Assembly: GCA_944319915.1 (NCBI GenBank)
Contig: CALUEY010000014.1
Coordinates: 1 to 41,020, forward strand
Direction: 5' to 3'
Source: an uncultured Prevotella sp.
GTDB taxonomy: Bacteria; Bacteroidota; Bacteroidia; Bacteroidales; Bacteroidaceae
DNA length: 41,020 bases
Below, in pieces: positions 38,294 to 41,020 of this stretch. Positions within the stretch are counted from its first letter, which is position 1; each line of letters starts with the position of its first letter. The position numbers were made by a program, and so were the translations under genes. Under the pieces are notes generated by a model. The model had not been told where the DNA came from and searched no databases. It saw nothing but the letters and a program-made list of their open reading frames with translations.

Positions 38294-38387
38294 CACGGCG
38301 CAAACTGTGTAGCATGGGGCGCAAACGCAAGCTTCCGCCAATGGTGGCGGCGCGAATGAACTGTAACGGCAAAAGGAAATATTGAAC

Positions 38388-39263
38388 ATGGACGATATGT
38401 CAGAGATTCTGGACGGCATAAGGCAGCAGGACCTGGCTGCCTACTGCGACGGCAGCATGGCTTTCATCGACAGCACCAACCATTTGGGCAGCGTAGGGAA
38501 AGTGAACACCGATGCGCTCATCCTCGGCCTGTGCCTCGGCGGCGGCACCACGGTGGCCATCGATGGGCGCGAGTTCGCCATGGCCCCGGGCGACCTTCTG
38601 GTGTGCCTGCCCGGGGTCACCATCGACCGCCACGATGCAGCCTCGGGCATGGACGGCCGGTGCATCTGCCTCTCGCAGGGCTGCCTCAAGAGGCTTTCGC
38701 TCATCAACATCGGCGACGCATGGAACGCACTGACCTCGCTCCACAACAAGCCCGTGCTGCGCCTTACCCCCGATGAGGTGCATACGTTCTGCACTTACTA
38801 CGACCTCATGCTCTCGCGCCTCAACCAACCGGCCCACCGATACAAGCAGAAGCTGGTGGAGATGCTCGTGCTGGCCTTCCTTTACGACTTCCACGGTCTG
38901 CTCGAACGGTTCTTCACCCCGGCCGACAAGCCCCGCCGCTCTGCCGAGAAAGCTTTCCGCGAGTTCATCGACCTGCTCACGTCTTCTTACCCCAAGCCGC
39001 GCGACGTGGCCTACTATGCCGACAAGCTCTGCCTCACGCCAAAGTACCTTTCTGCCGTGTGCAAGCAGGTGAGCGGCTCCACGGCCTCGCAGCTCATAGC
39101 CAGCTTCGTGGTAAAGGACATCAGGCGGCTGCTCGACGAGAGCGACAAGAGCGTGAAGGAGATATGCAACGAGCTGGGTTTTCCCAACCCCTCGTTCTTC
39201 GGCACCTACGTAAGGAAGCACCTTGGGCAGTCGCCCCGCCGCTTCAGGGAGAGCGTCAAATAG
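38388..39263 (+). CDS. AraC-family transcriptional regulator
   Basis: 291 residues from the ATG at 38388; an in-frame TTG two codons upstream (38382) is the alternative. The N-terminal ~170 residues form a cupin-like ligand/sensor domain (LGGGTTVAIDGREFAMAPGD). The C-terminal ~100 residues hold the two helix-turn-helix motifs of the AraC/XylS fold (VAYYADKLCLTPKYLSAVCK; VKEICNELGFPNPSFFGTYV), ending in the usual HLGQSPRRFRESVK. A transcription factor responding to an unknown signal. It is oriented toward the polysaccharide-type locus, but a strong terminator (39299-39356) separates them. Confidence 0.9.
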   Translation: MDDMSEILDGIRQQDLAAYCDGSMAFIDSTNHLGSVGKVNTDALILGLCLGGGTTVAIDGREFAMAPGDLLVCLPGVTIDRHDAASGMDGRCICLSQGCLKRLSLINIGDAWNALTSLHNKPVLRLTPDEVHTFCTYYDLMLSRLNQPAHRYKQKLVEMLVLAFLYDFHGLLERFFTPADKPRRSAEKAFREFIDLLTSSYPKPRDVAYYADKLCLTPKYLSAVCKQVSGSTASQLIASFVVKDIRRLLDESDKSVKEICNELGFPNPSFFGTYVRKHLGQSPRRFRESVK

Positions 39264-39298
39264 GGCGTCAAGTAGGGCAGGGCGGTCGCTACTGATGC

Positions 39299-39356
39299 GG
39301 AGAAAGCCCGGGCTGGTGATGCAGTGGCATCCCAGCCCGGGCTTTCTCCGCTTTTT
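39299..39356 (+). terminator. Strong terminator after the AraC-family gene
   Basis: An 18-bp perfect stem, 39299-39316 with 39332-39349 (arms begin GGAGAAAGCCCGGG), plus inner pairing GATGC/GCATC, followed by GCTTTTT. It insulates the region at 39403 from upstream transcription. Confidence 0.9.
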
Positions 39357-39402
39357 ACGAGTATGTAGTGGGAAATATTGCGCCGTGCTGGCTGACAGCA
39401 AC

Positions 39403-39430
39403 GTCCGTCTCCTGCCATGAGACGGACATT
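39403..39430. repeat. Left 28-bp inverted repeat of a probable invertible segment
   Basis: GTCCGTCTC, seven asymmetric bases CTGCCAT, GAGACGGAC, then ATT. The reverse complement occurs exactly at 39802-39829. Each copy is itself an imperfect palindrome whose centre gives it a direction. Confidence 0.85.
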
Positions 39431-39801
39431 CTGCGGGCAAAGGTAGCAAAAATTATCAATCGGATGGAATTTTGTGCTGATTTATTTGCATTAAATTTTT
39501 GGACATCGCGCAGGCGGGGTCGCAGCCCCCATGTTTGGCCGTGGCTGGTTGCAAAACCGCCACAACGTGGGTGGCGCAGGCTGGCTTGCGGCTAATCACC
39601 CGGCGCAGATGGAGACGTGGGGATGGGGTGCCATGCTTGCATATATGCAACTAAAATCTTGCTGGTTGAGGCTTGGCGGGAGCTGCCTGCGCCATTGCAT
39701 CGCGAAACAGTGCGTTCCGCAATTCTGCGCTTGTTGCCATTTGTTGACCAAGTTTTGGGGCGAGACGACTGTAAGCTACTGGTCAACAGCTGGTTCGCGG
39801 C
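39431..39801. other. 371-bp probable invertible segment
   Basis: The DNA between the two inverted repeats. I find no supported gene in it on either strand and no rightward consensus promoter. Its only clear signal is the leftward -7 box at 39438-39445. Composition shifts from AT-rich at the left end to GC-rich in the middle. Confidence 0.6.
39438..39445 (-). promoter_or_regulatory. Promoter -7 box inside the invertible segment, now pointing left
   Basis: Minus strand TACCTTTG, exact TAnnTTTG, seven bases inside the left repeat; the -33 position is weak. In this orientation it reads out through the left repeat toward the AraC terminator. Inverting the segment would place it next to the right repeat, reading into the UpxY gene. 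Confidence 0.6.
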
Positions 39802-39829
39802 AATGTCCGTCTCATGGCAGGAGACGGAC
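39802..39829. repeat. Right 28-bp inverted repeat of a probable invertible segment
   Basis: AAT, GTCCGTCTC, ATGGCAG, GAGACGGAC: the exact reverse complement of 39403-39430. It lies 155 bases before the UpxY ATG. The stretch 39830-39984 has no consensus promoter of its own. Confidence 0.85.
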
Positions 39830-39984
39830 AAACCATCCGTCGTGAAGACCGATGCTGGCGCCTGCGCCGGCATTGCGGCAGACGGAGACGCCGCTGAATT
39901 ATGGCAACCAACGGAAGTTTAACGCCTCGTCAATGTAACTGCTTGTCACCGTGGAGCTTACGGTAGCTTGCAGGATTAGATGCA

Positions 39985-40605
39985 ATGTCCCAAGCCCCAA
40001 CAATGTGCGAATCAAGCCCCAGCCAGCAAGCCGGCGCCGGAGCCGCGTGCGGTGCCGCCCCCGGCCAGCCGTCAGCGGGCAAGCAGTGGTTCGTGATGCG
40101 CGACCTCAAGCGGGCCAACGCCAAGCTGCCGGCCTACAGGCTGCTTGGCGCCATGGGCATGGAGACTTTCACGCCGATGGTGTGGAAGCTCGCCCTGCGG
40201 CGCGGGCGGCGTTGCCGCGAGCGGGTGCCTTTCATGCCCGACATGCTCTTCGTGCACAGCGCGCGGCAGGCCCTCGACCCCGTCGTTGAGAAAGAGAACA
40301 CTCTGCAGTACCGCTATGTGCGCGGTGGCTACAAGGTGCCCATGACCGTGAGGGAGGCCGACATGCAGCGTTTCATCCGCGCCGTGGAATCGTCCGACGA
40401 CCCCTGCTTCTTCACCCCCGGCGAGGTGACCCCCGGCATGGTGGGCATGCGGGTGCGCATCATTGGCGGCCCGCTCGACGGCTACGAGGGCTGCCTGCAG
40501 AAGATGCAGGGCTCCCGCGCCAAGCGCCTCTTCGTTGAGCTGCCGGGCATCATCACCGCCTCGGTGGAGGTACAGCCGGAATACATTCAAATAATTAAGA
40601 AGTAA
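39985..40605 (+). CDS. UpxY-type (NusG-family) transcription antiterminator
   Basis: 206 residues. After an Ala/Ser/Gly-rich N-terminus (~1-32), the NusG N-terminal domain begins with KQWFVMRDLKRANAKL, includes VPFMPDMLFVHSARQALDPV and YRYVRGGYKVPMTVREADMQ, and is followed by a KOW domain (TPGMVGMRVRIIGGPLDGYE ... YIQIIKK). In Bacteroides, UpxY proteins are the first genes of capsular-polysaccharide operons and let RNA polymerase read through the long leader of their own operon. Here it is 155 bases after the right inverted repeat, the place where an invertible promoter would act. The start at 39985 has no strong ribosome site; a shorter start is possible. Confidence 0.85.
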   Translation: MSQAPTMCESSPSQQAGAGAACGAAPGQPSAGKQWFVMRDLKRANAKLPAYRLLGAMGMETFTPMVWKLALRRGRRCRERVPFMPDMLFVHSARQALDPVVEKENTLQYRYVRGGYKVPMTVREADMQRFIRAVESSDDPCFFTPGEVTPGMVGMRVRIIGGPLDGYEGCLQKMQGSRAKRLFVELPGIITASVEVQPEYIQIIKK

Positions 40606-40705
40606 GAATTAAGAATTAAGAAAATATGCAGCGGGGGAGCAAGGGGAAAGAATTAAGAAGTAAGAATTAAGAAAATATGCAGCGGGGGAAGCAAGGGGGG
40701 GAAAG
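40593..40705 (+). repeat. Two tandem ~56-bp repeats overlapping the UpxY stop
   Basis: Unit AATTAAGAAGTAAGAATTAAG ... ATGCAGCGGGGG-A-GCAAGGGG at 40593-40650 and 40651-40705; copy 1 has an extra AATTAAG. The first unit begins inside the last codons of the UpxY gene. Confidence 0.75.
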
Positions 40706-40741
40706 TCTGACCCTTATTGCTCCCACGTTAACTCCCACGTT

Positions 40742-40790
40742 GTGGCGGGTTTGCAACCCGCCACCACCCCGTTCCGGGTCTCTGACCCGG
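40742..40790. repeat. Two short palindromes in the upxY leader region
   Basis: GTGGCGGGTT-TGC-AACCCGCCAC (40742-40764) and CCGGGTC-TCT-GACCCGG (40774-40790). Both are perfect hairpins without T runs. They lie between upxY and the next frame, where antitermination leaders occur. Confidence 0.65.
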
Positions 40791-40840: not shown

Positions 40841-41020
40841 ATGCTCACGGCAAGCCAGTTCATTTCCGCGTGGCGGCGCCGCCACCACCCGTCAGCCAAC
40901 GTTGAGGCCGATGCCGCTTTCTACTATCGGCTCTACTGTCAATTGCATGGCATCGCGGAGCGCAACGCGCGGAACTTCAGCGAGGCCCACCTGCTCTCGC
41001 TGCTGCTCTATGCCGAGAAT
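40841..41020 (+). CDS. Start of an unknown gene, cut by window (possibly UpxZ-like)
   Basis: The frame opens at the ATG at 40841 and stays open for 60 codons to the end of the window: MLTASQFISAWRRRHHPSAN, then AFYYRLYCQLHGIAER and FSEAHLLSLLLYAEN. It looks helical and soluble. In Bacteroides polysaccharide loci the gene after upxY is often upxZ, which inhibits the UpxY proteins of other loci; position fits and the Tyr/Leu-rich helices are compatible, but I cannot recognise the family from 60 residues. Confidence 0.5.
   Translation, partial: MLTASQFISAWRRRHHPSANVEADAAFYYRLYCQLHGIAERNARNFSEAHLLSLLLYAEN

Follow-up and report, generated by a model that had tools for sequence, protein, structure and literature searches.

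The DNA between positions 39403 and 39829 of the window, i.e. of the whole 41,020-nucleotide stretch that was analysed, is very probably a promoter inverton, stored in the OFF orientation before a gene for a UpxY-family antiterminator. To judge from sequence comparisons, the enzyme that flips it is very probably a tyrosine recombinase, with the product of C13:40382-41587 in the same genome as the likeliest candidate. The assembly comprises 2.63 Mb in 45 contigs and is 89.8% complete; the window corresponds to its contig C14, whose last base is number 41020. Switches of this class, the phase-variable capsule promoters, are already known, and the window is a further case. The part that a specialist would not have expected, and which matters more than the switch, is a new, apparently undescribed hairpin in the leader of upxY. 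Its conservation is well supported, and UpxY may use it as the signal for joining RNA polymerase.

The features follow one another in the order araC-type gene, terminator-like hairpin, inverton, upxY, and a gene cut at the contig end (Table 1). An earlier note on this DNA had described exact 28-bp inverted repeats 371 bp apart, a -7 box just inside the left repeat and facing left, no gene between the repeats, a strong terminator upstream and upxY downstream, all of which is borne out. The two arms, of 28 nt each, are 100% complementary; by our own arithmetic, about 1e-8 exact inverted 28-mer pairs are expected in a 41-kb window. Each is a 9-7-9 quasi-palindrome, GTCCGTCTC-CTGCCAT-GAGACGGAC, a shape expected of a tyrosine-recombinase core site. 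The 7-bp spacers of the left and right arms are reverse complements of each other, so that strand exchange would invert the segment. The hairpin behind the araC-type gene folds with -55.3 kcal/mol (z -10.6) and is followed by TTTTT; a simple terminator scan did not flag it.

Table 1. Features of the inverton and its surroundings (window positions).
Feature	Position	Strand	Basis
araC-type gene	38382-39263		
Intrinsic-terminator-like hairpin behind araC-type gene	39297..39351	+	20-bp perfect inverted repeat, fold, TTTTT
Left arm, putative recombination site GTCCGTCTC-CTGCCAT-GAGACGGAC plus ATT	39403..39430	+	exact 28-bp inverted repeat; near-identical copy at C13:41865
Predicted invertible segment	39431..39801	.	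sequence, arms; same geometry in relatives
-7 box TACCTTTG of the putative invertible promoter, facing left (OFF)	39438..39445	-	7 bp inside left arm
Right arm	39802..39829	-	exact reverse complement of left arm
upxY leader, right arm to upxY start	39830..39984	+	sequence
Conserved covarying leader hairpin	39939..39973	+	covariance-model match 39931-39981; no Rfam family
upxY, UpxY-family transcription antiterminator, 206 aa	39985..40605	+	NF033644 131.6 bits (cut-off 100); Pfam NusG
Next gene, start only, cut by contig end	40841..41020	+	related to gene after upxY in G285:C57

After inversion, the -7 box is predicted to lie on the plus strand at 39787-39794, 7 bp before the right arm. A single box of this kind is weak evidence, since TAnnTTTG is matched 29 times in the whole window versus 18.4 expected. 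Since no -33 TTTG is evident by eye at the usual spacing, the promoter call rests on the -7 box together with the comparison with relatives. The claim that no other rightward promoter precedes upxY held for TAnnTTTG, which does not occur on the plus strand between 37633 and the contig end; a sigma-70-type scan returned one weak plus-strand site at 39628-39657 (0.5 expected). A gene inside the inverton was considered and rejected: three open reading frames of 93-104 aa (listing threshold at least 80 aa) lie mostly within it, and none of the three has a Pfam match close to its cut-off. A fourth, of 349 aa, lies across from the araC-type gene, on the minus strand, and touches only the left arm and the first inner bases. 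As is characteristic of Bacteroidales promoter invertons, the inverted repeats flank a promoter beside a locus that UpxY and the corresponding locus of a relative mark as a probable surface locus. Separately, a 31-nt inverted repeat (94%; 39541-39571 and 40734-40764) links the inside of the inverton with DNA behind upxY.

When the genome was searched with the arm, allowing up to 3 mismatches, the two window arms and one further copy were found, at C13:41865-41889. The earlier note had held that a 28-bp palindrome dispersed over many unrelated loci would speak against a switch; this is not the situation in this genome, and a chance palindrome or dispersed repeat was rejected on the strength of the single extra copy and because none of 25 arm matches outside Bacteroidota is accompanied by a partner arm. 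The C13 site differs by one base from the window arm, has the same spacer, and lies some 280 bp past the 3' end of the tyrosine recombinase gene C13:40382-41587 (PF13102, PF00589), whose reading frame is open. The contig ends 57 bp behind this site, and only one end of the C13 inverton is assembled. The 26-bp stretch from the -7 box inwards is identical at C13:41899-41924, and the inner DNA beyond it differs. A tyrosine recombinase gene thus adjoins an inverton with the same site, as in systems of the Tsr type. A related recombinase on C15, 50% identical to that of C13, could act instead.

Two more invertons of this genome have half-sites resembling those of the window and different spacers, and the promoters of both face away from their gene. 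The inverton C30:273/458 (L155:273-472) precedes a 950-aa open reading frame which, to judge from its start, may encode a lipoprotein-like product and has no Pfam match above the cut-off. The other, C31:32679/32866 (L156:5180-5381, G000:C31:32679-32880), precedes a UpxY-like frame (L156:5525-6199; it scores 52.3 bits where the cut-off is 100), followed at some distance by a gene that we labelled Wzc-like (AAA_31 above the cut-off, Wzz below). One enzyme could serve the window, C13, C30 and C31 sites, with the spacers keeping the loci apart. The arm pattern is held by 2 of 398 genomes of the genus, this one included; in the other, G227, an inverton with window-like arms lies before a protein that begins like the 950-aa C30 product (L158). 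Among the literature matches listed for the motif letters GTCCGTCTC/GAGACGGAC with inverted repeats, no open-literature title was on this subject.

Mpi, a serine recombinase, inverts seven capsule promoters of B. fragilis. That an enzyme of this kind also inverts the window promoter is hardly credible, even though the order of inverted repeats, promoter and upxY is that of the known B. fragilis loci (PMC12632263, in the part available). Read against the Mpi-type motif given in the available part of PMC8375218, ARACGTTCGTN and a GTTCGTTTAA repeat, the window arms contain neither, and relatives of the window site stand behind tyrosine recombinase genes. The parallel with B. fragilis drawn in the earlier note stands for promoter inversion before upxY; the enzyme is very probably a tyrosine recombinase encoded on C13, comparable to Tsr19 of B. 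fragilis and not to Mpi.

The association of sites with recombinase genes extends across genomes. A site pair was present at 15 of the 30 recombinase loci returned by a similarity search; the reversed motif, as a control, gave no pair in 955 kb of partly overlapping loci. With three further loci added, 20 of 33 yielded a site that was used and 13 none; the 20 include L088 and L089, with a single site at the contig end, while L093 and L109, likewise single, were left out. The used sites always lie behind the 3' end of the recombinase gene, at 8-671 bp (20 loci). The more alike two recombinases are, the more alike are their arms (Mantel r 0.57, p 0.0002); spacers follow this trend less closely (r 0.43, p 0.0012), shared ancestry being retained in both values. 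The pattern GTCCGTCTC-N7-GAGACGGAC was matched by 39 stretches in a collection covering 84,980 species. A partner arm (up to 7 mismatches of 25) accompanies 8 of the 14 assigned by title to Bacteroidota, each with TAnnTTTG inside, and none of the 25 outside Bacteroidota. Two viral contigs also match the arm pattern (L153:662-686 and L154:60-84).

The assembly of this genome contains the window inverton in one orientation only. The earlier note had proposed a search for both orientations in related assemblies, and these were found. In one genome, G285, the closest relative of the C13 recombinase lies on contig C60 (71%) and that of the upxY in the window on contig C57 (70%). These contigs share 76 bp, comprising the left flank and arm, and then diverge, one running into one end of the inverton and the other, in its last 54 bases, into the reverse complement of the opposite end. 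The G285 assembly thus holds both orientations, with the recombinase directly upstream of upxY. The two orientations could have come from different strains in a mixture; that, too, would imply inversion. A second pair of relatives of recombinase and upxY in G285 (63% and 63%) lies on a single contig, C51. Opposite orientations of one inverton were also found in the near-identical loci L133 and L134 (G079:C34 and G080:C78), which align with 159 identities in 168 columns when reverse-complemented and 100 otherwise (200 shuffles: mean 100, maximum 108).

In all, 17 upxY loci were compared, the window included, chosen as the best similarity matches plus three with an adjoining recombinase gene (G164, G079 and G080:C78). 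Paired TCTC-N7-GAGA sites with reverse-complementary spacers occur at 11 of them; two of the remaining six have a single site and a fixed rightward promoter, and four have no site. Within the 11 paired loci a strict -7 box faces upxY in two (L118, L132), faces away in seven (window, L122, L124, L127, L128, L130, L134) and is missing in two (L120, L133). The central proposal of the earlier note, an invertible promoter recorded OFF before a UpxY polysaccharide locus, is well supported by these alike loci and by the opposite orientations in G285 and in L133/L134. One locus, L128:2305-2914 (G102:C3), has two tandem invertons with different spacers and one upxY behind them, and several contigs end within an inverton (L003:1501-1582, L006:1501-1633 and L119:1-130, the last being from G285, where the other contig has the opposite orientation).

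The inverton might instead be a relic with arms and promoter intact that is no longer inverted, leaving upxY silent in this lineage. The single assembled orientation would fit, and locking seems to occur, G087:C132 and G080:C18 keeping a single site with a fixed rightward promoter. Against a relic here speak the identical 28-bp arms and the fact that the genome has an open reading frame for a recombinase, with a matching site; we regard it as very unlikely. L129 and L131, where upxY is left with one site and a promoter fixed in the rightward direction, may be locked-ON relics. For the window, we infer from these comparisons an active inverton, the enzyme that acts on it, and the expression that follows.

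Besides inverting locally, the C14 and C13 sites might recombine with each other, rearranging the genome or exchanging DNA upstream of polysaccharide operons. They share the spacer and have arms one base apart, the C30 and C31 pairs having other spacers; the closest upxY relative has the recombinase gene upstream rather than araC; and the araC relatives in G133 and G285, the two closest in 16 genomes searched, have no site pair and no UpxY match behind them. No rearranged junction was seen, though, and binning or assembly loss would also explain the break 57 bp behind the C13 site. Such exchange is unlikely, if less so than loss of inversion. The junction between araC-type gene and inverton (window 38382-39403) may not be conserved.

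Because the contig ends soon after upxY, the product of the operon has to be judged from a relative. The gene start at 40841-41020 is 50% identical over 60 aa to the gene that follows upxY in G285:C57, a polysaccharide locus with a flippase-type and a pyruvyl transferase gene, and the window operon thus probably makes a polysaccharide too. Neither the window copy, cut by the contig end, nor its full-length relative (L160:1137-2261) has a Pfam or NCBIfam match. The position after upxY is where upxZ is often found. Between upxY and this gene, at window 40600-40700, lies an imperfect direct repeat (gaagtaagaattaagaaaatatgcagcggggg).

An alignment of 18 upxY leaders revealed a fixed block before upxY. 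Twelve leaders were taken by the flanking letters TAACT and GCAGGA, not by pairing; left out were G164:C99, which fits a looser pattern only, and five without a match. Folded singly, the 12 give much the same hairpin. In their alignment 95.8% of pair cells are standard and 6 of 10 pairs change on both sides. The covariation score is 0.541 against 0.236 for shuffled alignments (reached in 0 of 500); sliding gave 0.156 at the most. The consensus loop has 11 nt and its own conserved flanks, and in the window only 11 nt separate the hairpin from the upxY start. A conserved start codon 9 nt behind GCAGGA, seen by eye in 11 of the first 12 sequences, was dropped, as G655 and G418 break the pattern.

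A covariance model built on this element found 14 sites, that of the window among them, with E < 1e-8 in 299 genomes of the genus, each immediately in front of a upxY gene; apart from the 12 rows used for training, they comprise G015:C105 and G087:C180, which are new. Counting that of the window, 16 upxY genes reach at least 40% identity, and 14 of these have the hairpin before them; the fifteenth, G285:C42, has a degenerate copy (14.9 bits, E 0.12) and that of G093:C15 none. At the 18 fetched loci of UpxY matches less than 40% identical (L070-L087) no hairpin was detected at E up to 1, nor was one found at the C31 UpxY-like locus. At L030 and L043, two Bacteroidales loci fetched by inverton arms only, the inverton is followed by the hairpin and then by UpxY (L043 UpxY: 97.0 against the cut-off of 100). 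The genus search gave 33 rows at E up to 0.01, and 17 of the 19 below the best 14 were fetched; no UpxY-like frame lies within about 1.5 kb of these, one (G093:C7) precedes a polysaccharide operon, and BLAST of the others with 14 polysaccharide-locus proteins gave only a transferase-like frame upstream of L211. At E up to 1, Rfam has no family for the hairpin, its seven weak hits of miRNA or sRNA type lying elsewhere in the stretch searched, and it gave nothing at gathering score at four loci. No description of a UpxY leader hairpin appeared in titles or abstract starts among the literature matches listed, a search whose scope excludes most subscription journals.

Beyond the genus, 374 genomes of the order yielded 19 matches besides the window at E 0.001. 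The five with E < 1e-7 comprise four before upxY and one before a polysaccharide operon; over all 19, six precede upxY (in five families by tool labels), two precede polysaccharide operons without upxY, and 11, taken as chance, have neither a UpxY-like frame nor a match to the 14 polysaccharide-locus proteins in the fetched stretch. The element was absent at E up to 1e-4 from 295 further genomes of the phylum, at least two of them of the window's own family. A 24-row alignment, in which the model-found rows lean towards the model, has 89.6% of cells paired and 8 of 10 pairs changing on both sides. A.C mismatches are depleted (7 versus 15.4 in shuffles, 0.1% of which are as low) and G.U pairs are near the shuffled number (24 versus 28.7), which favours the sense strand. 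In the 12 of 24 rows with an inverton pair within 450 nt, the element lies 98-130 nt behind the right arm, as it does in the window (106 nt), where the pair is wider; in 10 of the 11 other rows a TAnnTTTG that faces right lies 87-187 nt before it.

Three polysaccharide operons have the hairpin 140-260 nt before their first gene and no nearby upxY. These are G655:C64 (19.5 kb read), with CpsB/CapC, polysaccharide export, Wzc-like and flippase-like genes; G724:C215 (10-kb contig; a weak match, E 6e-4), with polysaccharide export and Wzc-like genes; and G093:C7 (19.5 kb; E 7e-6), with acyltransferase, flippase-like and glycosyltransferase-like genes, the Wzc, flippase and glycosyltransferase names being ours, from sequence starts. 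Each of the three genomes has upxY elsewhere, which suggests that UpxY from elsewhere can act on these operons. L234, L235 and L236 are polysaccharide operon loci with the hairpin and without nearby upxY.

These observations can be combined into a model. The tyrosine recombinase would bind the 9-bp half-sites of each arm and carry out strand exchange within the 7-bp spacer. As assembled, the promoter would fire left into the araC terminator region (OFF), and after inversion through the right arm and the 155-nt leader into upxY and the polysaccharide operon (ON), so that inversion would set whether the operon is transcribed at all. The ON transcript would carry the hairpin, where UpxY, the first product of the operon, probably joins RNA polymerase, which it would then carry through the long operon. 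In the leader, UpxY keeps transcription from terminating prematurely (PMC7819879, in part), and the mode of its recruitment is described as unknown in the available text of PMC7593976. It is quite conceivable, at somewhat short of even chances, that the hairpin is a recruitment element, as RNA or nontemplate strand, for a large subgroup of Bacteroidales UpxY proteins, used both in cis and in trans; UpxY loci without it are common, which counts against such a role. A lesser but still considerable chance attaches to a role in translation of upxY or in mRNA stability, UpxY being recruited via DNA instead. The 11 nt between hairpin and start would suit such a role, GCAGGA could resemble a ribosome-binding stretch, the 18 loci of more distant UpxY matches are without the hairpin, and UpxY is cited, in the part available of the LoaP paper (PMC12691694), as contacting the upstream DNA duplex. 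It accounts poorly for the element before the three operons without upxY.

With a covarying hairpin as a mark of UpxY operons in several families, the recruitment of UpxY can be tested directly; the switch gives a concrete prediction, a recombinase acting on a distant locus. If recruitment at the hairpin is true, UpxY would be the second NusG paralogue, after LoaP, that makes use of structure in a leader, here combined with a promoter whose inversion depends on a tyrosine recombinase shared between loci. As described in the accessible part of PMC12691694, LoaP is likewise a NusG paralogue, and the leader of its long target operon, dfn, contains an RNA hairpin; the dfn hairpin has a UNCG-type loop, whereas the window element has an 11-nt loop and flanks of its own. 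The Mpi-controlled PS promoters of B. fragilis are also invertible promoters before upxY and a polysaccharide operon, but the Mpi system differs in its serine recombinase and site motif (PMC8375218 and PMC4747536, both in part). In the gut Bacteroidota invertons covered by the available portions of PMC11892184 and PMC8748976, UpxY genes are again placed so as to be inverton-driven; the tyrosine invertase adjoins and is oriented so as not to be driven, a feature shared here. By enzyme type and distant recombinase, the window inverton would resemble Tsr19 (BF2766) of B. fragilis, for which the available text of PMC4747536 likewise describes one tyrosine recombinase with a local and a distant inverton, a promoter inside, control of polysaccharide and surface genes, and a local promoter that is mostly OFF. 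Unlike that of Tsr19, the distant target here is a UpxY locus, and it is near-identical sites, not deletion mutants, that link the two loci.
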